Shown: positions 1 to 63,362 of the stretch, in pieces | Numbering within the stretch: position 1 is the first letter of the stretch | Layout of the letters: each line of letters starts with the position of its first letter | Assembly: GCA_943736015.1 (NCBI GenBank) | Contig: OX031068.1 | Span: 24,622,296 to 24,686,295 of the forward strand | Length of the DNA stretch: 64,000 nt | Reading direction: 5' to 3' | Source: Tridacna crocea | Lineage: Eukaryota; Mollusca; Bivalvia; Cardiida; Cardiidae | Program-made: the position numbers and the translations under genes | The notes under the pieces: generated by a model | What the model saw: only the letters and a program-made list of their open reading frames with translations | What the model was told of the DNA's origin: nothing | The model's database searches: none

Positions 1-170
1 AACAAACTTAAAGTGACTCAAAAATTGAAATTTGTTTTATGAAGGTTAGAAAACATTGTGAGAAAAGTAGAAAATGCTGGTTTCTAGCATTTTCTCCTTT
101 TCTCCCAAGGTTTTTAGAGGGCTTCTTTTCCAGGGTTGTGAAAACCAGGGATTGCTCTGGAAACAGTTAA
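1..170 (+). mobile_element. TTAA-MITE (A), cut by window start
   Basis: Only the right two thirds are present: a weakened hairpin (AAAATGCTGGTTTCTAGCAT) and the right end GGAAACAGTTAA. Confidence 0.75.
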
Positions 171-476
171 CTTATCAGATGTACTGTTACTTTCAAACTT
201 ACAAAATTCTTAAGAATATCCATTGGTGCATTATACTAAGCATGTCATCTCATAGATATAGATCCTTATGATCCATTTATTTAAGAGCAGCCTGAATTCT
301 GATGTAGAATGGTCCTTTGGCATTCCAACAATTAACCTATTGCCTAAAGTTTCCACCCAGATCATTCACACAGGCTGTCCTGGGTCGTCGATACTTTTGG
401 CAGATTCATTAAAAATCCCTTTTCACAGAGCTTGGATTATATGTATTTTATATGCATATAACTTTCTATTTTACAG
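171..476 (+). other. Intron sequence with no recognised feature
   Basis: I see nothing beyond the acceptor for the exon at 477; the open frame running into that exon is intronic. Confidence 0.5.
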
Positions 477-542
477 ATGATTGGAAACTGGAGTTTAGGT
501 ACTATTATTTACTTTGGGATCATAACTACTGTCTCTATAAAG
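477..542 (+). CDS. P4-ATPase (phospholipid flippase) exon, helix M8
   Basis: This is an internal exon of 66 bp, phase 0 at both ends, between acceptor ctattttacag and donor gtaagc. It encodes 22 residues starting MIGNWSLGTIIYFG; the initial Met is not a start codon. The G-N-W-x-x-G-T block followed by a hydrophobic helix ending in V-S-I-K is typical of the eighth membrane helix of P4-ATPases, which move aminophospholipids to the cytosolic leaflet. The next exon continues with LAL, matching the family's K-L-A-L junction. The catalytic core (phosphorylated Asp, nucleotide-binding domain) must lie upstream of the window. The subfamily (ATP8, ATP10 or ATP11 type) is not decided. Family identity rests on the joined protein of this and the next two exons, compared from memory. 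Confidence 0.72.
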
Positions 543-831
543 GTAAGCGTAACATTTAGTAGAACTTATCCTTACATAACATTGTTTGTAAAAATTCTGC
601 TAAGCCGACACACTTTCCACCTGTTCAGATCTCAATCAAAGTGCAGTCTGATCTTGTACCTACATTGTAAGATACAGTGAGGCTTTGTCTTGTAAATTTG
701 AAAAGGCATTATTTTGGTTTTAAGTAGTGGCTGGAAATTTTCATGTTATGTATTGAATAGGTTAACTTTTTACCAGACTGCACAACAGTGGGCATGTCCG
801 AAATGAAAGCTTTTATAGACAACATATCGTT

Positions 832-900
832 GGTGTGTTTCCAAAACTTCGTAACTACAGCTTGTAACAAGTTGTAGTTACAAGGTTTTGGAAGTACACC
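832..900. repeat. Foldback palindrome within a degenerate MITE region
   Basis: GGTGTGTTTCCAAAAC...GTAACTACA is mirrored by TGTAGTTAC...GTTTTGGAAGTACACC with a short loop. The surrounding 758-1076 holds weak TTAA-MITE remnants (TTAACTTTTTACCAGAC at left, GTGGTAAAGGGTTTA at right). Confidence 0.75.
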
Positions 901-1299
901 GATGATATTGGATTGCTTACAAATGATATAATGTATTTTTGTATCTTTGTTTGAATAGAAAATATTGTTTTTAGAGGAGAAACTGCTGTTTACAAGCATC
1001 TTTTCCTTTTCTCACAACATTTTCAAATGCTTCTTAAGTGGTAATAAGAGACAGGGAAGTGTGGTAAAGGGTTTACTTTCAAAGCTTTGGATTGTTATCA
1101 GGACATCCTAATTTTATTTGTGCTGATGTTACCAGTTTCATGGCATGTGACTAGGCAAGGCTCAGGAAAGCCCCAGACTAGATCAAATGAAACCAAGAAG
1201 AAATGTGAATTAGTGAGCTGTTACAATATGACTGCAATACTGTCGAAAAGTGACAGAAATGTAGACTTGCCCAAATGGAAAGCTTAAAAAGAGGACAAA

Positions 1300-1457
1300 T
1301 CAATTAAACATTGCCAAAATGATGAAATTAATCTTGATAAAGTGGAAAATATTGTTGTAAAAAGAGAAAATTCTGGTTACCAGCATTTTGTCTTTTTCCA
1401 ACAGTTTCAAAAGTTTTCTTTCTCAGGGTTGTTTGAATTCTGGATTATAAGGGTTAA
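1300..1457 (+). mobile_element. TTAA-MITE (A), degenerate
   Basis: It has a recognisable hairpin (AATTCTGGTTACCAGCATTT) and right end ATTATAAGGGTTAA. Confidence 0.65.
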
Positions 1458-1544
1458 ACAAAATTGAATAGTCTTTTAAAACAAAATGAGAAAGTTATGA
1501 ACCACTTTGTATTATTATACCTCTTACAACAATGTTAGGGTGAT

Positions 1545-1570
1545 TGTGTGTGTGTGTGTGGGGGGGGGGG
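1545..1570 (+). repeat. (TG)n-(G)n microsatellite
   Basis: A short TG repeat runs straight into ten G. Confidence 0.9.
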
Positions 1571-1837
1571 TCTGTCAGTCTATCCATAATAGAGGCAACT
1601 CTATGTCCTCCAATTAAGCTGAATTTTAAATGATAACCTTCCAGTTTTGAGAACTTGTACATCAATTTTTTATTATAGAAGGTGGACTGTGGCAGGAGTT
1701 GTGGCCCTTTGAATTTTTTCCTGATCCAATCACAAGGGGACTATGGTGTGGGAGGGAGGTATTTATCAGCCTGCAACAATTTAACTTTGGGCCACACATA
1801 CTTAGTTGTAATGATCCTACTGGAATTAAATTTTGAA

Positions 1838-1920
1838 AACATAATGGGATACTAGTGACCAACATTTTCTCCATTTCCCACCATGTGCTTACCCTTTCAA
1901 CCAAATTTTGCATCATTTCT
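1838..1920. mobile_element. TTAA-MITE hairpin remnant
   Basis: GAAAACATAATGGGA and ACCAACATTTTCTCC resemble one arm and part of the other; the ends are gone. Confidence 0.45.
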
Positions 1921-2274
1921 ATCATATTTTATTTGTCAACTGCAATTGACCTTACTGTAAACGTGAGTTTTGCACGCCCCCTTTAGTAACCTACTATATT
2001 GGTTGTCAAGCCTGACAAGCTAACCAGAAATTGTGTCAGACTTTTTTGTTTGCATGAGGCCCAATGCTGTATTTTCATTGGCAGACAAGACGTTGGTAGA
2101 CCTGTCAATCAAAATCTGCAGAAAGGTCAATTAATTTCAATTTGGTTGCTTCTAAAATTTTGTTGTTTGGTAAAAAGACTGGAATGAAACCAACAGAAAT
2201 ATTCATATTAGAAATACAATCTGCTGAATAGCAATTTCATAGTTGTTTTCATTTACATTGTTTCAGATAATCTG

Positions 2275-2335
2275 ACAGTGTAGATCAAAGACCAGGCTGC
2301 ATGTTGTGTACAGCCTGATGTTGATCTACGCTGGC
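2275..2335. repeat. GTAGATCAAAGA-type short palindrome
   Basis: GTGTAGATCAAAGACCAGGC is mirrored by GCCTGATGTTGATCTACGC. This is one of about eleven copies of a 55-75 bp foldback in the window. Confidence 0.8.
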
Positions 2336-2365
2336 GGCAAAGGCAAATTTGGTTGTGAAAGGAGC

Positions 2366-2593
2366 TTAACCCTTTCCCAAACAAGCCCTTGTTTTTACGT
2401 GTCTGCAGTACAAGTCTTTGGAAAACACTGTGGGAAAAGGAGATATTGCTCGTAACAAGCAATTTCTCCTTTTCCCACAGAGTTTTCTACCCGTTTGGAC
2501 AACTTTCTGCCATTTTTGTCAAATCTGAAATTGTCGTCTGCAAACTCTTTGGGTTTGGAAGAGTCTAGAATTTGTCGTTTGGGTAAGGGCTAA
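2366..2593 (-). mobile_element. TTAA-MITE (B), 228 bp
   Basis: It has CCCTTTCCCAAAC ends and an AGATATTGCTCGTAACAAGC centre. The right border is CTAA instead of TTAA. It ends 35 bp before the exon at 2629. Confidence 0.88.
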
Positions 2594-2628
2594 AGGGTAA
2601 AGTTTGATTTCCTCTCCTATATTTTCAG

Positions 2629-2735
2629 TTGGCCCTTATTAGTTATTACTGGTCTGCGGCCACATGGATAGGTTTCCTGTTTACTGCAGTCACTTTTTTG
2701 GTGGGAACCTTCCTATACAACTTTGTCCGATGGCC
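2629..2735 (+). CDS. P4-ATPase exon, helix M9
   Basis: This 107-bp exon lies between a pyrimidine-rich acceptor (cctatattttcag) and donor gtgagt. It enters in phase 0 and leaves with two bases (CC) that complete CCG with the first base of the next exon. It encodes LALISYYWSAATWIG followed by a hydrophobic helix and F-V-R-W-P. In P4-ATPases the L-A-L...Y/W-W stretch is the loop between M8 and M9, and the helix here corresponds to M9. The usual W-G-S in this helix is replaced by I-G-F, so the protein is a somewhat diverged member. A B-type TTAA-MITE ends 35 bp upstream of this exon. Confidence 0.75.
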
Positions 2736-2758
2736 GTGAGTATCTTCTTCAGACCTTA

Positions 2759-2992
2759 TTAACCCTTTATCAGGCAAAACTGACTTTTAGCCACCCTTAG
2801 GAAGAAGCTTTTCAAAAACATTGTAGGATAATGAGAAAACTCTGGTAACTGGCATTTTCTCTTTTTCCAACAATGTTTTCTAACCTTTCAGAGACAAGTC
2901 CTGTTATTTCATACACATGAAGATCATTTCCTTTGGAAATACTTTGGATTTCAAAAAGTCAAAAATGTTGCTGCAATGGAGGAAAGGGTTAA
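2759..2992 (-). mobile_element. TTAA-MITE (A), 234 bp
   Basis: Both TTAA borders are intact (TTAACCCTTTATCAGGC and GGAAAGGGTTAA); the hairpin is diverged. Confidence 0.85.
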
Positions 2993-2995
2993 GTG

Positions 2996-3630
2996 GTTAC
3001 CACACAAGTTCAAGACAGAAACATACTGAAAACATTTTCTGAAAACATTGTCTGAAAAGGAGAAAATGATGGTACTTAGTATTCCATTTTGTTGAGATAT
3101 TTCAACCGGGAGATATTATTAGATTATGATGTTTGAAATTTTTATTCACATAGGAAAATTGTAGATATCAGTTTTTGAAACTTTAACTCCTTACGAGTTG
3201 ACAGGATATTAGACTATGCTAAAGTCTTAGCATTTTAAGAATGTGGCAAAAATTGAACTTAATTTTTGGAAGACTAGAAAAGATTGTGAAAATGTTGTGG
3301 GAAAAAGAAAAGAAATGACGGTACCTACATAGCCAATATGTTGAGATGTCTTTAGATCATAATAGATGTACATGTATTTGAAATCTATATTCATACAGGG
3401 ATAATGGTCATTTCCATTGTTTGGAAGTTGAATTCTTAAACAGATGACAACATTTAAGGCTATTCTAAAGTCGAAGCATTTGCAGACGACCAAAAAATGT
3501 GACTCAAATTTTGAAATTTAAAACATAGAAGAGGAGAAAATGCTGTTTGTCAGCAGACTGTCCTTTTCCAACAATTTTTTTCTCCCCTTTCAAAGCCAAA
3601 TCCTACCATGTGAGCAATATATGGTTATTA
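2996..3630. mobile_element. Cluster of decayed TTAA-MITE pieces
   Basis: Arms (GAAAAGGAGAAAATG, GTGGGAAAAAGAAAAG) and ends (AGCATTTGCAGACGAC) occur in broken order in at least three fragments. Confidence 0.5.
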
Positions 3631-3631
3631 T

Positions 3632-3765
3632 CCCCAGCCGTAGGCAGAGGGATATAGTTTTAGCGTTGTCAGTCGTTCCTTCTGTCTGTCCGTCCGTCCT
3701 GGTGAATATCTCCAGTACCATTGGACTGAATTTTATGAAACTTTATACATGTGCACAATAACCCA
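3632..3765 (+). repeat. Fragment of a GTCTGTCCGTCCGTC-type repeat
   Basis: ATCCCCAGCCGTAGGCAG, then CTGTCTGTCCGTCCGTCC and a GAATATCTCCAGTACCATTG segment. It resembles in layout the element copies at 24049 and 30288. Confidence 0.45.
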
Positions 3766-3932
3766 TTCTGCCAAGACGCATATTGTCAATGAAATGCTGT
3801 CCCTTGTAAAAAAGGAGCTTAATGTATAATTTCATCATGGACCAATAACAAAAAGGCCACAATCATGTACATGCAAATTACAATACATCTAACATGTTTG
3901 TATCAAAAAAGGTCTTTTTTGGCAGGGAATAT

Positions 3933-4193
3933 GGAGTGCAACACACGAAAAGGTGCATTCGGACATTTGCGTAAAGTGTCGTCTCGGATTAGCCTGCGCA
4001 ATCCGCGCAGGCTAATCCGAGACGGCACTTTACGACTACATTAGATTTTGTGTTACAGTAGACTTGCGTAAAACAGAAAATCACATAAAATCGGAAAGTA
4101 TCGTTTCGGATTAGCCTGTGCGGAATGCACACGCTGATCAGAGACGACACTTTACGCAAATGTCAGAATGACCCTTTTCGCGTGTTGCACTCC
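3933..4193. mobile_element. GGAGTGCAACAC-ended MITE with nested palindromes
   Basis: Terminal inverted repeats GGAGTGCAACACACGAAAAG and its near-complement are bordered by ATAT on both sides. Inside, GCGTAAAGTGTCGTC leads into a long GATTAGCCTGCGC hairpin. I recall similar palindromes as abundant in bivalve genomes; there is no coding content. Confidence 0.85.
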
Positions 4194-4459
4194 ATATCAT
4201 TACAATGAAATTGCTTGTTGCCTACTTTATTTAACCTGACCCTATTCGTTATGCTGAGTATATAAGAGGAAATATAAATAAAACTGAAACTATTATTCAA
4301 GAGGGTATTCAGGAAACTATGTAATGTGCATGTAAGTAATGTAATTTGTGCGTACCATATAAGGTATTTCTGTGACCACTCGGGACATATAATGAAGGCA
4401 GCCCTATGCTTTGCTGAGGGTGAAAAAAGAATTTTTAAAAATCAAATCTGTCGGTATGA

Positions 4460-4595
4460 AAATAGAAAACATTGCTGAGAAAAGGAGAAAATGTTGGTTA
4501 CCGGCATTTTATCCTTTCCCCACTATGTTTTCAAAAGCTTTTCTCTTCAGGGTCATTAATACTTGGGATTGTGTTGTGAATACTAAATTGTAAAA
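4460..4595 (+). mobile_element. TTAA-MITE (A) abutting exon 4608-4779
   Basis: The hairpin (AATGTTGGTTACCGGCATTT) and right part (GGTCATTAATACTTGGGATT) are clear. The right terminal repeat has decayed into TACTAAATTG, 12-20 bp from the splice acceptor. Confidence 0.75.
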
Positions 4596-4607
4596 CTTGT
4601 ATTTAAG

Positions 4608-4779
4608 GAACTGGCTAATTGACACTGATGACTTGCTGTTTGACTTTAACACCATGCTGTCGACTGTCACATTCTGGCTGGCCGAGCTTGTGTTGATTGT
4701 TATGGCTCTTCTTCCCGACATAGTGTTCAAAGTGTGGCATGACAGCACACTGTATGGAACTATCGCAAAACAATTACAT
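4608..4779 (+). CDS. P4-ATPase exon, helix M10 and start of cytosolic tail
   Basis: This 172-bp exon runs from acceptor gtatttaag to donor gtaagtat. Its first G completes the Pro codon from the previous exon, then 57 codons follow and it ends in phase 0. A polar loop (NWLIDTDDLLFDF) leads into a hydrophobic helix containing FWLAELVLIVMALLPDIVFK. The F-W-L...A-L-L-P-D signature is the family's last membrane helix (M10), followed by basic cytosolic residues. This is the strongest single piece of evidence for a flippase. The acceptor lacks a clear pyrimidine tract and lies just downstream of MITE-derived sequence. Confidence 0.78.
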
Positions 4780-4856
4780 GTAAGTATGGTGGGATGACAG
4801 CCTGTCATGATCTGATTGAATCATCTGACTGGTTTTTGTGATATCTTTGCTTAAAT

Positions 4857-5184
4857 CTTTACTACTCAATAAGAAGACTAGACTTGGTCAAATTTAAAAG
4901 CATATGCAGAAGGGAAAATGAATGTGACCTAGATGAGAGGAACTGTCTTTGAGAGGACAAAAAGGCTTTGAAAACATTGAGGGAAAAGGAGAAAATGTTG
5001 GCTTCCAGCATTTTCTCCTTTTCCCACAATGCTTTCAAAAGCCCTTTATAGTGAAGTTTGTTAAAACATGGAATTATTTTGTGAAGGTATAAGGTTACCA
5101 GCATTTTCTCCTTTTCCTTCAATGTTTTCAAAAGGCTTCTTTCTCAGGGTCGTTAAAAGTCGGTATTGTGTAGTAAAGAGTTAA
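4857..5184 (+). mobile_element. Two fused TTAA-MITE (A) copies
   Basis: The left copy has a full hairpin (near 4975-5040). A second right half (ACCAGCATTTTCTCC...GTAGTAAAGAGTTAA) follows. Its final TTAA is shared with the next element. Confidence 0.78.
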
Positions 5185-5405
5185 CCCTTTACCAGATGAC
5201 AAATTTAAGCCTTGTCCAAATTGAACGCATTTTCAGACAACAGTTCCAGTTTGCTCATCAAACAGTACAATGTTTTTAGATGAAGTAGAAACATTTTGGG
5301 AAATGGAGAAAATGCAGGTTACCGGCATTTTCTCCTTTTCCCAAAATGTTTTCAAAAGGCTTCTTTCCCAGGGTCGTTAAAATCGTCATTGTGTGGTTGG
5401 GTTAA
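5181..5405 (+). mobile_element. TTAA-MITE (A), 225 bp
   Basis: It has intact TTAA borders; the left one is the same TTAA that ends the previous copy. The hairpin centre is GCAGGTTACCGGC. Confidence 0.88.
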
Positions 5406-5494
5406 TTTTGTGATCTGCATATACTTGCAACATGGTTAGATCCTAGGTTGGTCTTGAACTCTAAATAAAGAAACAATAAATTCATAGTTTGTGG

Positions 5495-5722
5495 TTAACC
5501 CTTTCCCAAACAAGCCCTGGTTTTTACGTGTCTGCAGTAAAAGTCTTTTGAAAACATTGTGGGAAAAGGAGAAATTGCTTGTAACGAGCAATTTCTCCTT
5601 TTCCCACAATGTTTTTTATCCTTTTTGAGAATTTTCTGCCATATTCTCAAAATCAAAAATTGTCGTTTGCAAACTTCTTGAGTTTGGAAGAGTCCAAAAT
5701 TTTTCATTTAAGAAAGGTTTAA
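5495..5722 (-). mobile_element. TTAA-MITE (B), 228 bp
   Basis: It has the TTAACCCTTTCCCAAAC end and TTGCTTGTAACGAGCAA centre; the right end is decayed to AAGAAAGGTTTAA. Confidence 0.9.
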
Positions 5723-6097
5723 GAGGTAATGAGGTATGGTCATGGAGCAGAAAGGTATCATACACATTGAAGATTATTTTTGCCATTACATATCAAAGAT
5801 ATTTTTCTAACTTTATCCAAACTTTTTTAGAGTGATGAACAAGCGATGATAGTTTAGCTAGATAGACTTTTGAAGCATTATCAAAAAGTGTATTTTCCCA
5901 TTTTCTTTGACTATGTCAGCTGTATATCTTGCAGAATGATTTTTTTCTGGCAATAAATTACTGTTGCATTTATTTATATCAAAAGAGAAATTGCTTGCAA
6001 GCAATTTGTCCTTTTACCTCAATCATCTCACATGTACATGTATTTATAAATTTGATCGTGATTCCTATAAACTATCAGTATTGTCTATCGATGTTTT

Positions 6098-6326
6098 TTA
6101 ACTCTTTACCACACGACAAAATTTAAGACTAGTTAAAATTGAAAGCATTCACAGACGACAAACTAAATGTGAATCTAAAATTGAAATTTGATTTGGAAAG
6201 GGTTGAAAACATTGTGGGAAAAGCAGAAAATGCTGGTTACCAGCATTTTCTCCTTTTCCCACAATGTTTTCAAAAGGCTTCTTTCTCAGGGTCGTTAAAA
6301 GTCGGGATTGTGTGGTAAAGAGTTAA
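6098..6326 (+). mobile_element. TTAA-MITE (A), 229 bp
   Basis: Both TTAA borders are present with a near-perfect hairpin centred on GCTGGTTACCAGC. It is a good reference copy. Confidence 0.93.
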
Positions 6327-6346
6327 AGGCATCTGCTATTTATTCA

Positions 6347-6535
6347 GGTCTTTACCAAACTATTCTGATCATTGTGGGAAAAGGAAAAAAGCATCTAGGA
6401 GGCAGTATTTTTCCTTTTTCCACAATGTTTTCTACCTCTTCACAACCACAATTCCCCTTTATAACATAGAACATGTCATTTGCAAATGCTTTCAAATTGG
6501 AAAAGTGAAATTTGTTGTTTGGGAAATGATTAAGG
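6347..6535 (-). mobile_element. TTAA-MITE (A), shortened
   Basis: TCTTTACCAAACTATTC begins it and GGGAAATGATTAA ends it. The hairpin centre has changed to AAGCATCTAGGAGGC. Confidence 0.7.
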
Positions 6536-6861
6536 AGAAAAAGTATTAAGTAAAAAGTGACAATTCTGATCATATCAGATTTTTATATATCAACAGGAAG
6601 AAAAACAATGTTTGCTGCCACTTGCGGGCTTTTTCGAAGCCCACTGACCTGAGAGAATCTTTAAGTATGATCCCTCTAGATGTATCTTATAACATAACCC
6701 TTCCTCCTTGTATAGACATGCTTGAAGTTGAAAATATTGAAACAGGCAAAGAAACTGCTAATCATTTTGTAGCAGTTTTGAAATTAGAAACCCCTAAATA
6801 AAAGCTTATGAGGTGATGGGACAACTTTACTATATTTTCTGAAATGCATCGCTTGTGTCTT

Positions 6862-7080
6862 GACCCTTTACCGAACAATCCCATGCTATTATTAGTGTAC
6901 AAAAAGGCTTTTGAAAATATTGTAGCAAAAGAGGACAATGCTGAAAAACAACATTTTTACTTAACACATTAAATTGGGCACAGTTTTATGGACAATGCTT
7001 ACTATTTGAGCCATGTATGATTTTACATCTGCAAATGCTTTCAAGATGGACAAGTCTGAAATTCTGTCATCTAGTTGAGA
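6862..7080 (-). mobile_element. TTAA-MITE (A), decayed
   Basis: Left end GACCCTTTACCGAACAATCC; the right part keeps GCAAATGCTTTCAAGATGG and GTCATCTAGTTGA. Confidence 0.65.
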
Positions 7081-7399
7081 GTGAACTGCAGTTTATAATA
7101 TATCAAGTTTTATTTCATGCTTTCCGGTGGATATCGAGAAATAGCACTGAAAATATTTTTCAATCTTACACTGGTACCACCAGTGGAAATACCGGTTTTC
7201 ACGTTCTTGTTGCCTAGGTAAATTGCGCGTGCCTCACAGCCAGATGGGAAATATGACATAATGTTGTAATGCCTTGCTATGCGGGAGGGGTATACCATGG
7301 GGAATAACAGAAAATAACTGTACTGGAATTTGATAAAGCTCCTCCCAAAAAGAATTAAAAGCATCAAATAAATGGAATATTTGTTTTTTTCGGTGACAG

Positions 7400-42373: not shown

Positions 42374-42602
42374 TTAACCCTTTCCCAAACGACAAACTTT
42401 TTGACTAGACCAAATTGAAAGCATTTGCAGATGACAATTCAACTCTTGCTGAAAAGATGATTTCTGTCTATGATAGAGTAGAAAACATTGTGGGAAAAGG
42501 AGAAAATGCTGGTTACCAGCATTTTCTCCTTTTCCCACGATGTTTTCAAAAGGCTACTATTCCAGACCCGTAAAAACCAGGGATTGTTTGGGAAAGGGTT
42601 AA
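42374..42602 (+). mobile_element. TTAA-MITE (A/B mixed), 229 bp
   Basis: The ends are B-type (CCCTTTCCCAAACG) but the hairpin centre is A-type (GCTGGTTACCAGC). Confidence 0.92.
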
Positions 42603-46938: not shown

Positions 46939-47172
46939 TTTAACCCTTTCCCAAACAATCACTGGTTTTTACTGGTCTAGAATAGTAACCTTTTGAAAAC
47001 ATTGTTGGATAAGGAGAAAATGCTGGTAACCAGCATTTTCTCCTTTTCCCACAATGTTTTCTACCCTATCATAGACAGAAATCATCATTCTTTTCAGCAA
47101 GAGTTGAATTATCGTCTGCAAATGCTTTCAATTTGGTCTAGTCCAAAAGTTTTTTGTTTGGGAAAAGGTTAA
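46939..47172 (-). mobile_element. TTAA-MITE (B ends, A centre), 234 bp
   Basis: TTAACCCTTTCCCAAACAAT to TTTGGGAAAAGGTTAA; centre GCTGGTAACCAGC. Confidence 0.92.
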
Positions 47173-52255: not shown

Positions 52256-52529
52256 CATCTCGCCTTCCAGTAGCGCTTTTGTACACCACATGTACCATTA
52301 GAGCTGTAGTAAAATGTTGTTTGTTCCTGCTTTGTTCAATTCAAGAAAATATTGGAAACTAGCATTTTCTCCTTTTCTGACTGTGACAAATGTTTTTTTT
52401 CTATCAAACACTTAACCTATTTTTGAACTACATTCCCAATATGTTTTTGACTCTCAAAGACAATTCTCATTACTTGAACTACATTTCATTTGTTGTCTGC
52501 AATTCCTTTTTATTTCAGCAAGTCAAACT

Positions 52530-52842
52530 AGAGCTGTGACTAAATGTGACTTAATACCCGTGCCAGACCTTTGACAGAAAAAAGTGTCAAATTCAAGGGG
52601 AGATAATTCTCCAACTAGGAAGAGTTGACACTTGAAAAGTGCATTTTGCAATCTTCGATATATGATTAATATATGTACAAAGTTTCAATACAGTTGAAGG
52701 AAAACTGCAGGAGGAGTTTGCGACACAAAATTACTGGTGTTTTGTACACAGACGGACAGAGACACAGACTGACACACAGGCAAACAGGATGATTCCAGTA
52801 TAGCCCGAAAACATTCATGTTGTTGGGGGGAGGGGGGGTTTT
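52530..52842 (-). mobile_element. GGGGTATACTGGAAT element, minus strand
   Basis: AGAGCTGTGACTAAATGTG and TTAATACCCGTGCCAG, then GTGTCAAATTCAAGGGG, TTTTGTACACAGACGGACAG and ACATTCATGTTGTTGGGG: the family order reversed. Confidence 0.8.
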
Positions 52843-53475
52843 ACAAAAATTTCTCATTTTTTTGGTAGTTTATATAGAAGTAGTTTGTACTTAACAGCAT
52901 TTTCTCCTTTTCCCAAAATGTCTTCAAAAGGTCTCTTTTTCAGGGCTGTTGAAAGTTGGGATTGAGTGGTAAAGGGTTTAAGAAGAACTCAATTATAATC
53001 AAACATTCTTTAACTTATCGTTTGGCATGTGGTCCAAATGGCTCACAAAGTCTGCATTGGCGTTTGCTCGTATAAAAAAATCTCACTGCCACAATGCTTT
53101 CAATGGTTACCTCACTGCATGACAAAAAACTCCGCTGTGCTGGATTTAAAAGGGTTTCTGTTAATTACAGATTCGGTAAAATGGACATACTGTATGTAGA
53201 TACATTCTTATCTTGAATGTATGAAGGATATAATTATGTTTTCTTAATCTTTTTTTGGGTGGTCTAGTCAGGGTATTTGTTATATTTTGTAGGATTTTCA
53301 TTAATTATGATTTATTCTGATTGATAAAAACTTGAAGTCAACACAGTTAAAGACAGGTGAAGGTGTGATAAATATTATACTGCATATTAATCTCTTTAGT
53401 AAGAAGGCTGAGTAGAATACAGAAAACTGTACAGATATACCCATACTCTGAGTAATTCCCCTTGAATAAAGTTAT

Positions 53476-53842
53476 TTAACCCTTTCCCAAACAATCCCTG
53501 GTTTTTACGGGTCTGGCATAGTAGCCTTTTGAAAAGATTGTGGAAAAAGGAGAAAATGCTGGTTCTTACTGGCTGGAATGGTAGCCTTTTGAAAGCATTG
53601 TGGGAAAAGGAGAAAATGCTAGTAACAAGCAACTAGATCTATCTTCTGGTCTGGAATGATAGCCTTTTGAAAACATTGTGGGAAAAGGAGAAAATGCTGG
53701 TAACCAGCATTTTCTCCTTTTCCCACAATGTTTTCTACCCTATCATAGACAGAAATCATCTTTTCAGCAGGAGTTGAATTGTCGTCTGCAAATGCTTTCA
53801 ATTTGGTCTAGTCCAAAAGTTTGTCGCTTGGGAAAGGGTTAA
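53476..53842 (-). mobile_element. TTAA-MITE with triplicated left arm, 367 bp; empty site known
   Basis: TTAACCCTTTCCCAAACAAT to TTGGGAAAGGGTTAA. The segment TAGCCTTTTGAAAACATTG plus GGAAAAGGAGAAAATGC occurs three times before the centre GCTGGTAACCAGC. At the matching point of the duplicated block (62147-62150) only one TTAA is present. Confidence 0.96.
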
Positions 53843-53929
53843 AAACCTGTTTTGATCACACACCCACAAAAACTTATAATGATATGACATCTTTAAAAGA
53901 ATTTAAGTAACATGATAATAAAAGGTCGA

Positions 53930-54060
53930 GTTAAAAAAAAGTGGTCTAAAAAATAAGGTGTCGATATGACCAAAGTTTGCAAACATTTTTCCACCGCGGA
54001 TCGAAATAACCAAAATGTGTCGAAATGACAGGGTGTCGAAATTACCGGGTGTTCAAATGA
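53930..54060 (+). repeat. GGTGTCGAAATGACC short-motif cluster
   Basis: GTGTCGATATGACC, GTGTCGAAATGAC and GTGTCGAAATTACC recur within 130 bp; the same cluster is at 62225-62365. Confidence 0.8.
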
Positions 54061-54910
54061 CTGCCATTCGATAGAAACAAGTTTTTACAACTGTATTTAT
54101 ACCAACCTCTCTCAATTATGCTATTTTCTTTATTTTCTTACCAACTAACGTAAAGTGTTGTATTGAACAAAGTTCAAATTTTTCTCACAATTCAAACTTT
54201 TATCCGAATATATCTACAATCCGGATACTGAGCAGATAATTCCCGTTCATGTTTAATGTTTTATTGTCTTTGATATAGTTCATATGCAAATATATATATA
54301 CACGTGTTTACTTGAAGAAAAAAAAGAAACATGCGACTTACAACCATTGGCACACGTAGAATCGTAAAGAAATCAAGGAAATAGTATCATGTCTTCTCTA
54401 CCAAGCTTAATTATTTGCTATTTCCGGTTTGTTCCTTTCTCATCAATTTTTGTTTGTAACACCAATTTACATTGCTTTTTCTCCTCAATTTGTTTAATTT
54501 GTTGCTACTGTCGCTTATTTTCGTCAATTTTATCTGCAATTTTGCTTTGCTTTTCGTTCCGGGCTGATATTCATTCGAAACACAAGGGTCTTGCAAGAGA
54601 ATGATGAACGACTAATGGTCAAAGGGAAACAACTCGTACAAAATTTTGTAATTAGTAATGCGACAGTTACCTCCCTTATTGAAGAGGAAAGGGCTTGTTT
54701 CGAACTGCTTCACGTCGTGAGTACGTGCATACCATTGAATGTTACGCCTACAAAACAAAGACTCCGCCCAAAACCTCGCTTTCGTTACTTTTGGAGGTGC
54801 TTAATTACTGCGGCTAAAGTATGCGCATAGTATGAGCAGAAGGCGGGACATGGAACCGCCTCTTCCTGTCTCTGGTCCTCATATGCCTGTGCACCTTACA
54901 AAAAATGCCA

Positions 54911-55557
54911 TGAACACGGTTACGTCTGTAGAGTCGATCCGTTTTACGAACGATGATTTTTCATCTAGGTGTAACGAATTTCAATCAGTTCATAAGGTCA
55001 AATTGTTAATTTTAACCGTTCTACGAACGACATGCCACCAGACAAAAAAAAATCGGTCAAATTTATTATTTTTCTTACCAGGCAGCAAGTAGTCTCCCGT
55101 TTATTTCATATTAATTGTAACCGCCAGTATTTGAATTTGGAATTCAATGTAAGATCGCGCTACAATAAAAATGCAACATTTGGTAACAGATATCATTGAG
55201 GTAATAGATGTTCAGTACATGAAATTAATGAGTTATGATAACCACTACGACAACTTAACGCAAACTTACAAACAGAACTATGTTTTCATTCAATGACGAT
55301 ATCGACATATATATCGCTAAATATGGAAGGTCATTTTATAGCTCAACTTCAAAACATAAATTGGCTTATCACAGTAGGAAGATAATGTTTAGTCAGTAAA
55401 ATTAATCCCAATGGATATCAAACCAATCCCGTTACAAACCCATAGAGCGCCAAATAAACAAGAGATAACTTCAGTCTAAAAAAGGCTATCCAAACAAATA
55501 AATATAAACTAAGGTTTAAAGTCGCATAAAGTTGTACAGAAAGTCTTAGGAAAGTTG
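54911..55557. other. Unique-looking sequence
   Basis: Nothing recognised; open frames here are short and not shared with the other copy of the block. Confidence 0.45.
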
Positions 55558-55623
55558 ACGGTGTAGATCAAAGATCAGATGCACGTTCTGTGCAGTCTGA
55601 TCATGGTCTACAAAGACTGTAAA
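55558..55623. repeat. GTAGATCAAAGA-type palindrome
   Basis: GTGTAGATCAAAGATCAG faces AGTCTGATCATGGTCTAC. Confidence 0.82.
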
Positions 55624-55794
55624 GGCAACTTTTATTATATATGGCACTTTGAAGTTTTCGTTTTTACGCGCCTTGGACATCAAACCTCTGTCGACCATTT
55701 AAACAGTGTACTGGAACTATATCTATCTGATAAAGATTTTAACTCTATCCAAATAGGTTTAACCCCTTCGGTGCCATAGGCGAAAGCAGAGACT

Positions 55795-55866
55795 TTTGCG
55801 GACGGCATAGATCAAGATCAGACTGCACAGAACATGCAGTCTGATCTTTGATCTATGTCATCCGCT
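55795..55866. repeat. GTAGATCAAAGA-type palindrome
   Basis: CGGACGGCATAGATCAAGATC faces TGATCTTTGATCTATGTCATCC; arms extend about 30 bp. Confidence 0.85.
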
Positions 55867-55987
55867 GGTGTAGTCAAGCCTATACAAACAAAATCTTTGT
55901 AAGTTTCATTAGAATGTGTTTAGAGCCGTCCGCTGGAATTTGAATTTATTTATTTTGCACTGAAAGGTTTACGAAACAAGTTAACCG

Positions 55988-56048
55988 TGTAGACTCAGAA
56001 TCAGATCGTACATTCTGTGAAGCGTCATTTTAAACTATGCCGTCCGCA
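55988..56048. repeat. GTAGATCAAAGA-type palindrome, decayed
   Basis: GTGTAGACTCAGAATCAGATC faces a damaged arm (AAACTATGCCGTCCGC). Confidence 0.55.
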
Positions 56049-56500
56049 AACCTCATACCTTTGGAAATGGCGATTTTCAAAGATCAAAACCCTTCTCGGT
56101 GATCCCAATCGACTTTCAAGTAGAAAAAGCAGGAAATAATCTTATTTAAAACTTAGATTCTAGTGTTTTGTATTAAAATCAATATCAATGACACTCTTTT
56201 GTTAAAATTAATTGAAATCTTCATCAAAAACAGATAAAAAACGTTGCATGCATGTCACCTTTTTCTCAGTATTGTGTTTAGTACTTTGATCCGTCAAGCG
56301 TCTAGAAGAAATGATGAAGGGCGGATCATTATTTAAGGGAGACTACTCTTGCTTTACTCTTACTCTTAGACAGTACGAGTTTTCTCCCCTAGACCATATT
56401 TTTTTTTTTTTAAATCCCAGCTGCGATAGTTTTGCAGTACTAGTCAATGGGCATCATTTATTGGGTTGATTGGTAAAAGATACAATTCGATATTGTAATT
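56049..56500. other. Unique-looking sequence
   Basis: Nothing recognised. Confidence 0.4.
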
Positions 56501-56624
56501 GAACTTTATGTAATTGAGAAAAATGGCTATTTATCTATTTTTGTTCGTCATATATGAATCAAGGAAAATCATATCTGCACATAATTATGTAGACTACACA
56601 GTGGCTTATTTAAATCAATTACAC

Positions 56625-56725
56625 ATACATAGGGACACTATTTTGGCTTTTGGAAAACATAATGAGAATCTTGAGGAAAACTGCTGGTTACATGCTATTT
56701 TCCTTTTGCCACAATAATTTCATAT
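56625..56725. mobile_element. TTAA-MITE hairpin remnant
   Basis: GGAAAACATAATGAGAATC and GCTGGTTACATGCTATTTTCC keep part of the arms. Confidence 0.45.
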
Positions 56726-56951
56726 CCTTCACAAAGTCCTTCTTTTGAGAAACTTTTGATCAAACACTATCTGTAAATGTTATTTATACTACTGTAAATA
56801 GTACAGAACTTTTATAGTCTAGTCGATTTGTTCGTTTAAAATTCAACCCTTATCCTACTAAGTAACCGAGATGAAAAATTCAAACTGATAGTAAAAACCA
56901 AAATTTGGCTATTTCAAAGGTATTTTTTCAGGATTAGACATGCTCTTATTG

Positions 56952-57023
56952 GACAGTGTAGATCAAAGATCGGACTACATGTTCTGTGCAATCTGATCTT
57001 GATCAACACTGTCTGCAAAAGGT
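56952..57023. repeat. GTAGATCAAAGA-type palindrome
   Basis: GACAGTGTAGATCAAAGATC faces CTGATCTTGATCAACACTGTC. Confidence 0.85.
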
Positions 57024-57162
57024 CATTGAGTTACACTTAACAGCCTAAGAGTTGATACTATTCAAATATTTTCAATGATATCACAGCTAGAGATAGAAGA
57101 AAGGTTCCCCTTCACTGTGAAAGTCATACTCTGCTTCATGTTACCCTAGGCACTGTATGCAG

Positions 57163-57222
57163 ATTGTAGACGAAGATCAGCCTGTACCTACTTACAGTCT
57201 GATCTTGGTTTCCACTTCATGC
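57163..57222. repeat. GTAGATCAAAGA-type palindrome
   Basis: GATTGTAGACGAAGATCAG faces CTGATCTTGGTTTCCACTTC. Confidence 0.72.
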
Positions 57223-57447
57223 AAACGTGCCAACAATCCCATACAAATAGTAGCATGTTTATAGAATGAAACATTTCAAACTTGCATTAATGTGTAATAA
57301 TTGTAAATTCTGCTGGATACCAGCTGAATATTCAATTATTAGGATTACAACTCCTAAAATGATTTTTGTTTTTTAGTATAAGCAATACCCCATGATTTAT
57401 CAATATAAAGGATGTTTTTTCGACATGATTTCCCCCTCATGAATTTA

Positions 57448-57676
57448 TTAACCCTTTACCAAACAATCCCTGTTTTTTACGACTCTGAGACAGAAGCCTT
57501 TTGAAAACATTGTGGGAAAAGTAGAAAATGCTGGTAACCAGCATTTTCTCCTTTTCCCAAAATGTTTTCTTCTCTGCTGGAAACAAATTTCAGTTTTTGA
57601 GTTACTTTTATTTTGACGACTGCAAGCGCTTTCAGTTTGGACAAGTCTAAATTTTTGTCGTTTGGTAAAGGGTTAA
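57448..57676 (-). mobile_element. TTAA-MITE (A), 229 bp
   Basis: TTAACCCTTTACCAAACAAT to TTTGGTAAAGGGTTAA: the terminal repeats match for 16 bp, a good consensus for the family ends. Confidence 0.94.
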
Positions 57677-57819
57677 AAGTGTGTATGAGTGAGTGTTTGT
57701 GTGTATGTATGTTCACTGTAAATTATTGTCTTCACCAAACTTTACAACTTTACATTATTCTGTCATATCCCCATGTATAATGTTTCACATTACTGGGTGA
57801 ATGAAGAGATTTTGACTTT

Positions 57820-58078
57820 GACTTTGAGCTGCAACCACTTCACCTCTACATTTTTTCCAAGCTTATTTTTTCCAGCACTTCTCACTATGGTGTTCCTAAG
57901 TCATTGGCTGCTTTCCCACATAACCATCTAGAGCATCATACACAGGTTATTCAGAAGCAAGATAGGAATGTATCCTGTTGCAATGACTATTATAAATTCT
58001 CTGACAGAAATTGGCAAGCTGGAATTTTGTACCAGCCACATGCTCACTCAAATGTTGTTACCAGCTGAGCTACAGAGC
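57820..58078 (-). mobile_element. tRNA-derived SINE
   Basis: The minus-strand head reads CTGTAGCTCAGCTGGTAAC (box A). The body shares the AGCAGCCAATGACTTAGG region with the copy at 43275-43568. Confidence 0.7.
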
Positions 58079-58262
58079 ATTTTTATCTTTTCCCACAATG
58101 TTTTCAAAAGCTGTCTTTTTCTCAGAAGACTTCTCCTTTTCTGGTCACAAGCATTTTCTTCTTTTCCAACAATGTTTTCAAAGGCCATCTCTTGACCTGA
58201 AAGACTTCTCTTCTGGTCACCAGCATTTTCTTCTTTTCCCACAATGTTTCCAAAAATCTCCA
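58079..58262. repeat. Array of three MITE right arms
   Basis: TTTTCCCACAATGTTTTC-like arms occur at about 58087, 58155 and 58225, each followed by a Ctt-rich spacer; no matching left arms. Confidence 0.82.
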
Positions 58263-58267
58263 ATATT

Positions 58268-58496
58268 TTGACTCTTTACCAGATGACAAAGTTTTGACCT
58301 TGCCCAACTTGAAAGTATTTGCAGACAACAATTCAAATGTGACTCCAATTATGAAATTTGATCCTGATAGGGTAGAAAACACTGTGGGAAAAAGAGAAAA
58401 TACTGGTTACCAATATTTTCTCCTTTTCCCACAGTGCTTTCAAAAGGCTTCTTCCTCAAGCGTGTTAAAAGTCATTATTGGGTTGTAAAGGGTTAA
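58268..58496 (+). mobile_element. TTAA-MITE (A), 229 bp
   Basis: TTGACTCTTTACCAGATGAC to TGTAAAGGGTTAA; centre ACTGGTTACCAAT, with the mismatch to type A made on both arms. Confidence 0.9.
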
Positions 58497-58499
58497 AAA

Positions 58500-58642
58500 G
58501 CCTTCTTTTTCTTCAAAAACATCCCGTCTAGTTATCAACATTTTTTTTCTTTTCCTACAATGTTTTAGAAAGCCTACAGTGTTTTCAAAAGCCTTCTCTA
58601 TTTGGGGTTGTTAAAACTCAGGATTGTGTGGAATGGGGTAAA
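58500..58642. mobile_element. TTAA-MITE right-half fragments
   Basis: TTATCAACATTTTTTTTC, CAATGTTTTAGAAAGCC and GATTGTGTGGAATGGGG. Confidence 0.5.
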
Positions 58643-58761
58643 AGGGATGACAAGATAAAAAGATAGAAATTCATCAAATAATCTTTATTTATTTCACAAT
58701 GCAGTTCTGTGCATAAATATATATATGCATGTATTTTACAAAAATATTCTGAGTGTAATTG

Positions 58762-58978
58762 CTGAACTCTGTACCAACGACAAAATTTTTAGACTGGTCC
58801 AAATTGAAAGCACTTGCAGAGGACAATATAACTGTAAATTTTTTTCCAGCAGGGTAGAAAACATAGTGGGAAAAGGAGAAAATGCTGATAACCAGCATTT
58901 TCTACTTTTCCCACAATGTTTTCAAAAGGGTTCTCCCTCAGGGTCATAAAAACCAGGGATTGTATGGTAAATGGTTAA
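58762..58978 (+). mobile_element. TTAA-MITE (A)
   Basis: GCTGAACTCTGTACCAACGAC to ATGGTAAATGGTTAA; hairpin GCTGATAACCAGC. Confidence 0.85.
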
Positions 58979-59024
58979 GAATTATCATTAAAACAAAGTG
59001 AAGTCAGTAAACTCATATTCCTGT

Positions 59025-59247
59025 TTAAACCTTTACCACAAAATCCCAACTTTTAATAACCCTATGAAAGTTTGAAAACATTATGGGAAAAGAAGAAAAT
59101 GCTGATAACCAGCATTTTCTCTTTTTCCCACAATGTTTGCTACCTTGCTAAAGACAAATTTCAATTTTTGAGTAACATTTATTTTCTTGTCTGCGAAAGC
59201 TTTCAACTTGGACAAGTATAAAATTATGTAGTTTGGTAAAGATTTAA
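59025..59247 (-). mobile_element. TTAA-MITE (A), 223 bp
   Basis: TTAAACCTTTACCACAAAAT to TTTGGTAAAGATTTAA. Confidence 0.9.
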
Positions 59248-59389
59248 AAATTTAAATCTGTGTTTACATTCTCACTAATTCCTGTATTACTCTCAGATGA
59301 TAATTTAAACCTTTGTTGACAAACACAACAAAACAAACACATAAAAGGTAAAATACATCGCTTCATTACAAAGACAGTACAGTGGGTAT

Positions 59390-59607
59390 TTAAAACTTTA
59401 CCCCGTAAGGCATTTCTATGGTATCTCTAATTGACCATAAATAAGAGCAAGGATAAAGCCATATATGACACCTTTTGATTGTGTAGAAAACATTGTGGCA
59501 AAAGATGAAATTGTTCGTCACGAGTAATTTCACATTTTGCCACAATGTTTTCCAAAGGCTCCTACAGGCAATGCATAGAAATGAGTATCTATGGAGTAAA
59601 GGATTAA
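59390..59607 (+). mobile_element. TTAA-MITE (C), 218 bp
   Basis: TTAAAACTTTACCCCGTAAG to GGAGTAAAGGATTAA; centre TTGTTCGTCACGAGTAA. Confidence 0.88.
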
Positions 59608-59694
59608 GTTGTGAGGAATACTTGTTTCCCCTACAATTATGAAATCAGTCGACCCTAAAAAGACACTGCTATCATCTGAGAGTAATACCTGAAG

Positions 59695-59850
59695 CTAATA
59701 CTTTAACAAACAATACTGAAAGCATTTGCAACTGACAAATATAGGTCAAGGTATGGTTACTGTTGTTGTTAAAAAAAAAACTTGGGGGAAAAACAACATG
59801 TAGGTCATCTACATTTTCCTCTTTTCCCATAATCTTTTCTAAAGCTTTAT
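59695..59850. mobile_element. TTAA-MITE, decayed
   Basis: ACTTTAACAAACAATACTG and CATTTTCCTCTTTTCCCATAATC. Confidence 0.45.
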
Positions 59851-59914
59851 ACCTCCAATTCTCATGACTGACTGATTGATTGATTGAATTGGATTTAATT
59901 GCCATTTTAACAGC

Positions 59915-60122
59915 TGAGGTCATATCATAGCAGTCAGTGCTCCTATGCATGTATTTCCTGGGTTTCTCACACCTGTACTGACATCACTTTCTTTCAGGAT
60001 CACTCGCTACATTCTCACATGCATCAGCCGTAAGAGGCAGGAAAGAAAGTTTGCCTCAGTGGGTATCAAACTCACCACAGCCAGGTCACAAGTTTGCTGA
60101 CCACTGAGCTGCCCAGGTGAGC
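59915..60122 (-). mobile_element. tRNA-derived SINE, decayed
   Basis: The minus-strand head is GGGCAGCTCAGTGGTCAGC (box A) and GAGTTTGATACCC (box B); the body aligns by eye with 43275-43568. Confidence 0.7.
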
Positions 60123-60124
60123 TA

Positions 60125-60480
60125 ATCCCCTAGAAAAACAGAACTACAAAAAAAAACTGAAAAAAGGAGAAAATGCAAATATACAACATTTCTCCTCCTC
60201 CTGCAATGTTTTTTCACCTTTGTCTGTAAATGCTTTGGGTTTAAGTCTAAAAGGTTTCCATCTTGTAAAAAATCAACAGGATTTTGGTTGAAATAAAGAG
60301 TTAACTCATTATCAAACAACAATATTTTAGGTTTGTCGAAATCAAAAGCATTTGCAGATGACAAAATACAGGTGACTCAAAATTTGAAATTTGTTTTGTA
60401 AAGAGTACAAAACAGAGTGAGAAAAGGAGAAATTGCTGGTGAAAAAAAAGTCAACAGGAATTTGGTCGAGATAAAGAATT
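60125..60480. mobile_element. Broken TTAA-MITE copies
   Basis: One copy spans about 60155-60304 with GAGTTAACTC at its edge; a second left half starts TTAACTCATTATCAAACAAC (60301) and stops after GAGAAATTGCTGGTG. TCAACAGGAATTTGG near 60450 repeats TCAACAGGATTTTGG near 60272. Confidence 0.6.
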
Positions 60481-60500
60481 AAAACCAGTAAAAACTTGGG

Positions 60501-60797
60501 TTAGACTTGAAAAACATTCTTACATTTAGGTTTGCATGCTCTAATACTATGGCATTTCTTAAATCTGGCCGGCCATCTATTGGAATAACATAAATCCTGA
60601 ATCCCCAGCTCACAGCCAAGTTTCTTCACCTTTTTGACAAGCATATTGCCACTTACAACAATATTTCTTGAACTTAAGTCTGAGTACCAACGATAAAGGC
60701 TCTCATCCAGATTCATGTGTTTTGGTGTGCTAGTCTGAACCCTGTAATCTTCCAAACCACTGGTCCATTTCTCATTGTTTTTAAAAAAAAAAAACAC
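60501..60797 (-). pseudogene. CENP-B/Tigger-type transposase DNA-binding domain fragment
   Basis: The minus strand has a 98-codon open stretch containing LDESLYRWYSDLSSRN, then IVVSGNMLVKKVKKLG and WPARFKKCHSIR. The L-x-x-x-L-x-x-W start, the central V-S-G-x-x-L-x-x-K and the W-x-x-R-F-K-x-x-H end are the signature of the CENP-B-type helix-turn-helix found in pogo/Tigger transposases and host proteins derived from them. Upstream, at a run of 12 T in the coding strand, the frame shifts; the other frame holds IFQEEVVNYLTKKWGKRLPP, probably the end of the preceding domain. No DDE catalytic domain is visible downstream, so this is a broken fragment. There is no real start codon. Confidence 0.72.
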
Positions 60798-61198
60798 TGA
60801 GTGTGGATGGTGGAAGCCTCTTGCCCCACTTTTTCGTTAAATAGTTCACAACTTCTTCCTGAAAAATATTATGGTTTTTGATTTCTCTCTTCTCCAACGA
60901 GGTAAACTAGTTTCTGCGTTTTGCACCTCCCTTCCATATTTACACTACAAAGATGGAAAGAAAAGTTTATTAACCCTTGATTACCTCAAGGAAAATGTAT
61001 TTTGAAAATAATGTGGAAATGAGAAAATATTGGCAACTAGCATTTTCTCCTTTTCCAACAAATAATTTTTTCTATCAAACACTTAACCTATTTTTGAACT
61101 ACATTCCCAATATGTTTTTGACTGTCAGAGACAAATCTCATTGCTTGTACTACATTTCATTTGTTGTCTGCAATTTCTTTTTATTTCAGCAAGTCAAA

Positions 61199-61511
61199 CA
61201 AGAACTGTCACTTAATGTGACTTAATACCCCTGCCAGCCCTTTGACAGAAAAAAAGTGTCAAATTCAAGGGGAGATAATTCTCCAACTAGGAAGAGTTGA
61301 CACTTGAAAAGTGCATCTTGCAAATCTTCGATATAATTATCATTAATATATGTGCAAAGTTTCAATACAGTTGAAGGAAAACTGTAGGAGGAGTTTGGGA
61401 CACAAAATTACTGGTATTTTGTACACAGATGGACAGACACACAGACAGACACACAGACAAAGCGGATTATTCAAGTACAACCCTGAAAACATTCATTTTG
61501 TGGGAGGTACA
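61199..61511 (-). mobile_element. GGGGTATACTGGAAT element, minus strand (copy 2)
   Basis: Same order as 52530-52842 but with the G run after TTCATTTTGTGGG shortened. Confidence 0.8.
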
Positions 61512-61557
61512 AAAATTTCTCATTTTTCTGGTAGTTTATATAGAAGTACTGGTAGTT

Positions 61558-61652
61558 TGTAGTTACCAGCATTTTCTCCTTTTCCCAAAATGTTTTCAAA
61601 ATGCTTCTTTTTCAGGGTTGTTAAAAGTTGAGATTGTGTGGTAAAGGGTTTA
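61558..61652 (+). mobile_element. TTAA-MITE right half (copy 2)
   Basis: ACCAGCATTTTCTCC to GTGGTAAAGGGTTTAA; the left half is missing in both copies of the block, so the loss predates the duplication. Confidence 0.82.
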
Positions 61653-63362
61653 AGAAGAACTCAATTATTCATCAAACATTCTTTAACTTATTATTTGCCA
61701 TATGGTCCAAATGGCTCAAAAAGTCTGCACTGCAGTTTGCACTTATTAAAAACTCTCACTGACACAATGCTTTCAAAGGTTACCTCACTGCATGACAAAA
61801 AAACTCCGCTGTGCTGGATGTAAAAGAGTTTCTGTAAATTACAGAGTCGGTAAAATGGACGTACTGTATGTAGATACATTCTTATCTTGAATGTGTGAAG
61901 GATATATGTTTTCTTAATCTTTTTTTAGGTGGTCTAGTCTTGGCATTTGTTATATTTTATAGGATTTTCACTAATTATGATTTATTCTGATTGATGAAAA
62001 CTTGAAGTCAATCACTGTTAAAGACAGGTGAAGGTGTGATAAATATTATACTGCATATTAATCTCTTTATTAAGAAGGCTGAGTAGAATACATAACATTG
62101 TACAAATATACCCATACTCGGAGTAATTCCCCTTGAATACAGATATTTAAAAACAGGTTTTGGTAACACACCAACACAAAATTACACTGATATGACATCT
62201 TTAAAAGAAATTAAAGTAACTTGATAATAAAAAGTCGAGTTTAAAAAGTGCTCTAAAAAATAAGGTGTCGATATGACCAAAGTTTGCAAACATTTTTCCA
62301 CCGGGAATTGAAATGACCAAAATGTTCGAAATGACTGGGTGCCGAAATTACCGGGTGTTCAAATCACTGCCATTCGATAGAAACAAGTTTTTACAACTGT
62401 ATTTATATTAAGCTCTCTCAATTATGCTATTTTCTTTATTTTTGTTTTCAACTAATGTAAAGTGTTGTGTCGAATAAATTTCAAATTTTTCTCACAATTC
62501 AAACTTGTATCCGAATATATCTACAATCCGGATACTGAACAGATGAGTCTCGTTCATGTTTACTGTTTTATTGCCTTTGAGTTTGATACGGTTCATATGC
62601 AAAGATATACACGTGTTTACTTTAAAAAAAGAAACATGCGACTTACAACCATCGGCACCCGTAGAATCGTAAAGAAATCGTGGAACTAGTGTCATATCTT
62701 CTCTACCAAGCTTATTTGCTATTTCCGGTTTGTTCCTTTCGTATCAATTTTTGTTTGTAACACCAATTTACACTGATTTTTCCCCTCAGTTTGTTTAATT
62801 TATTGCTACTATCGCTTATTTCCGTCCATTTTATCTCCGCTTTTGCTTGGCTTTTTATTCCGGGCTGATATTCATTCTAAATATATGGGTCTTGCAAGAG
62901 AAATGATGAACGACTAATGGTCAAAGGGAAACAACTCGTACAAATTTTGTAATTAGTAATGCTAAAGTTGCCTCCCTTATTGGAGAGGAAAAGGCTTATT
63001 TCTGACTGCTTCGCGTTGTGAGTACGTGCATACTATTGAATGGTACGCCTACAAAACAAAGACTCCGCCCAAAACCTCGCTTTGGCTACTTCCGGAGGTG
63101 CTAAATTACTACGGCTATAGTATGTGCATAGTACTTGCAGTAGGCGGGACATGGGACCTCCTCTTCCTGTCTCTGGTCCTTATATGCCTGTGCACCTTAC
63201 AAAAAATGCCAGCCAAGAGCAAGCATAAAACCGAGGACGAATATTTCCAAATTCCTCATGTTTTGTATTTTTAGTAGAATATGGTTAACAAACTTTTAGT
63301 CTGCCAAGTTTAAGTAAACATATGACTTTAGTACAAAGATTAATTAACTTTATAGATTTGTA

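Follow-up and report, generated by a model that had tools for sequence, protein, structure and literature searches.

The 359-bp element described here is, on the combined evidence of its target site and its end motif, best assigned to the piggyBac-type MITEs, and it was very probably inserted once into a TTAA of a host repeat and then spread as a passenger of the filled repeat. It lies in a window of 64 kb, by which we mean the whole stretch of DNA that was analysed; the genome-wide results refer to a genome of 1.05 Gb in 31 contigs.

The alignment of 52345-54910 with 61022-63211 comprises 2,164 aligned pairs with an identity of 91.5% and contains gaps of 6, 6, 7, 12 and 363 bp (gaps ≥5 bp). 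The single large gap of 363 bp is located at 53476 with its breakpoints at TTAA and corresponds exactly to the 359-bp element plus one TTAA. The raw lengths of the two blocks differ by 376 bp, of which the other 13 bp therefore stem from small indels. A preceding sequence-only reading had described an element bounded by TTAA on both sides in copy 1, a single TTAA without element in copy 2 and a length difference of about one element plus one TTAA, and the alignment bears out all of this (Table 1). The terminal repeats are perfect over 11 bp without and 15 bp with the TTAA, compared with the 12–19 bp given in PMC2872659. The element belongs to a long subfamily whose 5′ half contains repeated segments, and the window contains 54 non-overlapping full-length relatives of ca. 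229 bp. The family is short, non-coding, homogeneous in length and high in copy number, as is characteristic of TTAA MITEs. The window has 56 left ends of the form TTAACCCTTT[ACT]CC (at most two mismatches), more than expected by chance, as 20 first-order Markov sequences gave 3.4 on average.

Table 1. Coordinates of the element, its relatives and its host repeat (window positions unless stated otherwise) and ends located at resident piggyBac loci
Feature	Position or locus	Strand	Basis or remarks
Left target site duplication TTAA	53476..53479	.	sequence and pair alignment
Element, 359 bp, non-coding, ends CCCTTTCCCAA ... TTGGGAAAGGG	53480..53838	+	alignment gap, self-comparison
Left terminal repeat CCCTTTCCCAA	53480..53490	+	15-bp perfect inverted match including TTAA
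Right terminal repeat TTGGGAAAGGG	53828..53838	-	sequence, inverted match
Right target site duplication TTAA	53839..53842	.	sequence and pair alignment
Internal palindrome, 67 bp, 98.5% self-complementary, predicted 32-bp hairpin	53669..53735	.	self-comparison, fold prediction
Empty site, single TTAA in second host unit	62147..62150	.	sequence CAGATATTTAAAAACAGG and pair alignment
Standard-length relative, 229 bp	42374..42602	-	ca. 96% identical over matching parts, TTAA both sides
Relative, 233 bp	46940..47172	+	ca. 90–92% identical over matching parts, TTAA both sides
Host repeat, first unit, filled	52344..59286	+	unit positions 1348-7307, further insertions within
TA-flanked insert between units, ca. 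400 bp	59287..59685	.	inverted ends TATTACTCTCAGATGAT/ATCATCTGAGAGTAATA
Host repeat, second unit, empty	59686..63243	+	unit positions 1-3580
Further TTAA insertions	L018 at 2392; L041 at 1548; L044 at 2236; L048 at 1538		host unit positions
piggyBac ends CCCTTTATATAC	L006, L007, L008, L051, L052		TTAA-bounded inverted repeats
piggyBac ends CCCATTTATGCC	L003		TTAA-bounded inverted repeats
piggyBac ends CCCTTTCAG[CT]GC	L053		TTAA-bounded inverted repeats
piggyBac ends CCCTAGTCATGC or close form	L054, L058		TTAA-bounded inverted repeats

A single filled/empty pair does not decide between TTAA and TA as the duplicated target, because insertion into T-TA-A with duplication of TA and an element with A...T ends yields the same two sequences. 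The claim that the superfamily can be assigned from this window alone thus did not hold; the TA reading fits the pair equally well, and genome-wide counts were required. The 22-base end CCCTTTCCCAAACAATCCCTGG occurs exactly 15,707 times in the genome and is preceded by TTAA in 13,608 cases, by ATAA, CTAA or GTAA in 345, and by neither in the remaining 1,754 (by subtraction); control patterns gave 0 occurrences. A Tc1/mariner-type MITE, which duplicates TA and whose outer T and A would be part of the target, would often show other letters in the first place, i.e. free outer bases next to the duplicated TA, but these account for 345 ends against 13,608 with T. This interpretation, which the one pair could not separate from the TTAA reading, is refuted by the counts and retains a practically negligible probability. 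TTAA as the duplicated target is further corroborated by four more related MITE insertions which differ between host copies and have clean empty counterparts: all four duplicate TTAA, so that no different target length emerged at these other empty sites. A fifth insertion (L040) duplicates TTAA by some references and is ambiguous, as it adjoins an older MITE end. Set aside in this comparison were MITE-to-MITE alignments (overlaps CTGGT, GT and TTTCTC), non-MITE inserts with 9-bp, 11-bp and AGCT overlaps, and the element's own site in filled copies. Among the 54 full-length copies of the window TTAA is found on both sides of 24, on one side of 21 and on neither side of 9, and 96 of their 108 ends lie within one base of TTAA.

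The search for a partner started from 118 genomic matches to PF13843, many of them in open frames, of which 22 piggyBac loci were inspected for TTAA-bounded inverted repeats. Besides the ends listed in Table 1, weaker ends were recorded at L061 and L072 and one end only at L005; convincing ends were not found at L001, L002, L004, L055, L056, L057, L059, L060, L062 and L073, among which L062, L059 and L057 are internally 96–99% identical to families with known ends. The transposase loci L056 and L060 are ca. 96% identical and have nested MITEs in common, and thus probably represent a duplicated segment. A piggyBac with terminal repeats CCCTTTCCC or CCCTTTACC around its transposase, as suggested earlier, did not turn up at these 22 of the 118 loci, nor did they include an autonomous partner with the same ends as the MITE. 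The best agreement with the ends of the five resident families amounts to 7 of the first 12 bases for the subfamily of the element and to 8 of 12 for any subfamily tested, and CCCTTT is common to the MITE end and two of the resident end types. TTAA is likewise duplicated by Sola3. Movement by such a different TTAA-specific superfamily would also be in line with the missing exact piggyBac partner among the 22 loci. Against this highly unlikely alternative stand the resident piggyBac elements, which begin with CCC, and the CCCTTTCCC ends known from coral piggyBac elements, namely CCCTTTCCCGTCC of AmiPB1 and CCCTTTCCCTACTA of AmiPB3, as given in PMC2872659. The animal piggyBac end motifs listed in PMC10813416 include CCCTT, CCCAT and CCCTC, with TTAA in most cases. 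The previous notion that CCC-starting ends fit piggyBac is consequently supported by both the resident and the coral elements. The subfamily of the element starts with CCCT and hence carries the terminal motif CC[C/T]T as worded in PMC2872659; other subfamilies of the same MITE begin with CTCT, CTCA or CCCA and lack this motif, and we count those starting with CTC or CCCA against the piggyBac-type explanation. Since the resident piggyBac elements with locatable ends are bounded by TTAA and CCC, piggyBac-type MITE appears to be the best assignment, resting on target and end motif rather than on a partner.

The "duplicated block" of the window consists of two consecutive head-to-tail units of a dispersed, partly tandem 7.3-kb repeat. 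With the 367-bp unit of element and both TTAA as query the best 40 of 2,835 candidates were scored and 30 copies fetched, including that of the window. All 30 occupy one and the same site of the repeat (unit position 2469) and have the flanks of the window copy in common, apart from a short right-hand deletion in L022; the element was thus multiplied as part of a larger repeat. Copies of the empty junction are dispersed as well, the best 40 of 478 candidates being 95–100% identical over (nearly) all of the query. Matches to the 367-bp unit, the empty junction and the joined flanks are distributed over contigs C1-C15, C17 and C18. A locus on C5 shows the same order as the window, a filled followed by an empty unit. 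According to 40 filled and 59 empty match positions, an empty match lies 7.4–8.6 kb downstream on the same strand for the window, C3 and C12, and a fourth filled match, on C10, has an empty match 24 kb downstream; for C3, C12 and C10 the arrangement is known from match positions alone. The tandem is not universal, as no upstream unit was seen in the sequence fetched for L064 (3.1 kb) and L065 (2.5 kb). No stop-to-stop open reading frame above 182 aa was detected between 48 and 64 kb of the window, and a Tc5-type DNA-binding domain fragment at L063 and L064 (PF03221, E 5.6e-10) does not allow a class to be assigned to the host repeat. Several other insertions were noted in and between host units. 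The ca. 400-bp inter-unit insert of the window contains the palindromic core in a diverged form. In the filled unit of C5, ca. 2.2 kb are inserted after the MITE copy (L066:3375-5547); the last 1.64 kb of this insert (3914-5552) have 448-bp inverted repeats of 98.7% identity which start with TTAAGGTTCATG. A 268-bp insertion at L044:701-977 with a 7–9-bp duplication (CTCACTGAC) and ends CATCC...GGATG belongs to a different transposon type.

The adjoining copies, of which copy 1 alone is filled, might suggest that a segment was duplicated locally and that copy 1 was hit recently, and the block had been read in this way. However, the same insertion is found in 30/30 fetched genomic copies and in the first unit of the C5 tandem, and the element has diverged to a similar extent as the right flank: the mean departure from the consensus among the 30 host-borne copies is 2.2% for the element and 2.6% for the right flank (10.9% for the left flank, a value that mixes different left structures). 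Barring assembly artefacts at these loci, the shared flanks refute this history, which is thus very improbable, and filled and empty units are to be regarded as subfamilies of the dispersed repeat. In a right-flank tree, unrooted and calculated from 43 rows after removing five duplicate rows of 48, 31 filled and 12 empty rows fall on opposite sides of one branch with 100/100 support. More distant empty copies (L069-L071), fetched from six similar matches to the joined filled-type flanks, form a third lineage adjoining the empty one. The previous dating of the insertion after a local duplication thus needs correction: the element was inserted after the unit lineages had split, yet before they spread, given the filled state of all fetched copies. 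The other option raised, a precise excision as piggyBac can perform it, would derive the empty units from filled ones and would leave the clean TTAA that the empty site indeed exhibits. Yet the sampled empty units belong to two lineages apart from the filled one, and the best 40 of 519 candidates matching the joined filled-type flanks included no filled-lineage copy that had lost the element; these 40 scored matches cross the site at 90–92%, i.e. at the level of the empty lineages. Because the tree is unrooted, a single loss without footprint in the ancestor shared by the empty lineages would agree with it, and insertion is preferred to loss by parsimony; we consider derivation by excision unlikely, though somewhat less so than a local duplication. 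The host copies were drawn from the 40 best-scoring matches in searches that gave hundreds to thousands of candidates, so that further types may have escaped notice. The simplest history would be a single old insertion that travelled with the host repeat during its dispersal.

Consistent with these data we propose the following scenario. A non-autonomous piggyBac-type MITE would have been pasted into a TTAA of the 7.3-kb host repeat, presumably by a piggyBac-type transposase acting in trans, whereby the TTAA was duplicated, as seen in the filled/empty pair and its counterparts. There would have been a single such event, in the line leading to one subfamily of the host repeat; the single branch is observed in the tree, and its reading as an insertion follows parsimony. 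Subsequently the filled repeat, in places with an empty unit following it in tandem, spread genome-wide with the MITE as passenger, as shown by the common flanks and the similar decay of element and right flank.

The family to which the element belongs is very abundant. A profile built from window copies gave 56 full-length matches and assigned 30.6% of the 64-kb window to the MITE group, with 0 matches in a shuffled window (n=1). The family consensus is 229 bp long, and its palindrome of 67 bp occupies positions 108-174. A 27-base arm of this core occurs exactly 238,629 times in the genome (control 0), whereby a perfect palindrome counts twice. Since the window contains 19 of these 27-mers versus 14.6 calculated from the genome mean, it is somewhat rich but not exceptional. 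A rough ratio extrapolation from 167 kb predicts a family share of ca. 246–252 Mb or 23–24% of the genome. The 22 piggyBac loci are poorer, with a MITE coverage of 7.7%, or ca. 17% when 2.6 kb per element are set aside, and their 7 core 27-mers against ca. 23 from the genome mean weaken the estimate of ca. 23%.

The palindrome of the window copy is predicted to form a 32-bp hairpin of -54.4 kcal/mol (z -15.3) and is the best conserved part of the family. Copies match the consensus best in the palindrome (0.915), less well in the terminal 20 bases (0.814 and 0.872) and least in the stretches between (0.75). This comparison comprised 50 of 51 copies from the window and a selection of loci, which had been picked solely by their ends; one low-scoring copy was dropped, and the L056 and L060 copies represent one duplicated insertion. 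Relative to the rest, the core diverges by a factor of ca. 0.4 in distant pairs and of 0.7 in the closest ones. Among 1,598 cells compared in the arms between copies 149 changes are one-sided, 44 are double with pairing kept and 13 double with pairing lost, the 44 matched double changes contrasting with a mean of 11.7 and a maximum of 20 in 500 shuffles. Many of them are inherited subfamily variants, as five pair positions yield 37 of the 44, and relatedness inflates the count. The 30 host-borne copies show 29 single and 0 double arm changes in 960 cells, a weak contrast in view of only 29 changed cells, and a slower decay of the core after insertion was not shown (core 0.0144, rest 0.0237, p 0.13). 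These sequence comparisons suggest that the palindrome is maintained in the mobile lineage but no longer once an element has inserted. Joint changes of the two arms are seen between copies, yet not among passively carried ones. We therefore tentatively envisage, as a possibility that is rather doubtful at present, that the palindrome has a function in the mobile element, with its hairpin being selected or its arms being copied from each other during transposition, and that it helped the family to reach about a quarter of the 1.05-Gb genome.

A filled and an empty copy side by side are accordingly no proof that an insertion followed a local duplication, as the two may be subfamilies of a dispersed repeat. 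The 13,608 exact TTAA ends of one subfamily provide a clean genome-wide test of the TTAA target for a very large MITE expansion, and the scale of the family and its covarying palindrome merit work of their own. The element shares with the CMITEs of Acropora the TTAA duplication, the filled and empty sites, the link to piggyBac, the CCCTTTCCC-starting ends (there in one family) and the subdivision into several families with differing ends and an internal region better conserved than these, as reported in PMC2872659; the core analysed here equally exceeds the ends (0.915 versus 0.814/0.872). The conserved internal hairpin thereby resembles a puzzle reported for the coral elements in PMC2872659, the cores being likened by their conservation pattern. 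In contrast, the Acropora CMITEs measure ca. 100 bp, with their copy number estimated at 1,600 for A. millepora (PMC2872659), whereas most elements investigated here are ca. 229 bp long (at most 367), are far more numerous and have a 67-bp palindrome as conserved core. The coral elements AmiPB1 and AmiPB3, piggyBac superfamily members with CCCTTTCCC-starting ends, are autonomous, 2.3–3.7 kb long and different in the bases after CCCTTTCCC, according to PMC2872659. The piggyBac elements resident in the same genome (Table 1) likewise combine TTAA with CCC ends, but share at best 7 of the first 12 end bases with the subfamily of the element. Pokey and mPok of Daphnia also belong to the piggyBac superfamily with MITEs and have copies in a multicopy host repeat; as described in PMC4912750 and PMC3849761, this host is the rDNA, occupied at a specific site, whereas here it is a 7.3-kb repeat whose site was apparently hit once and then copied.
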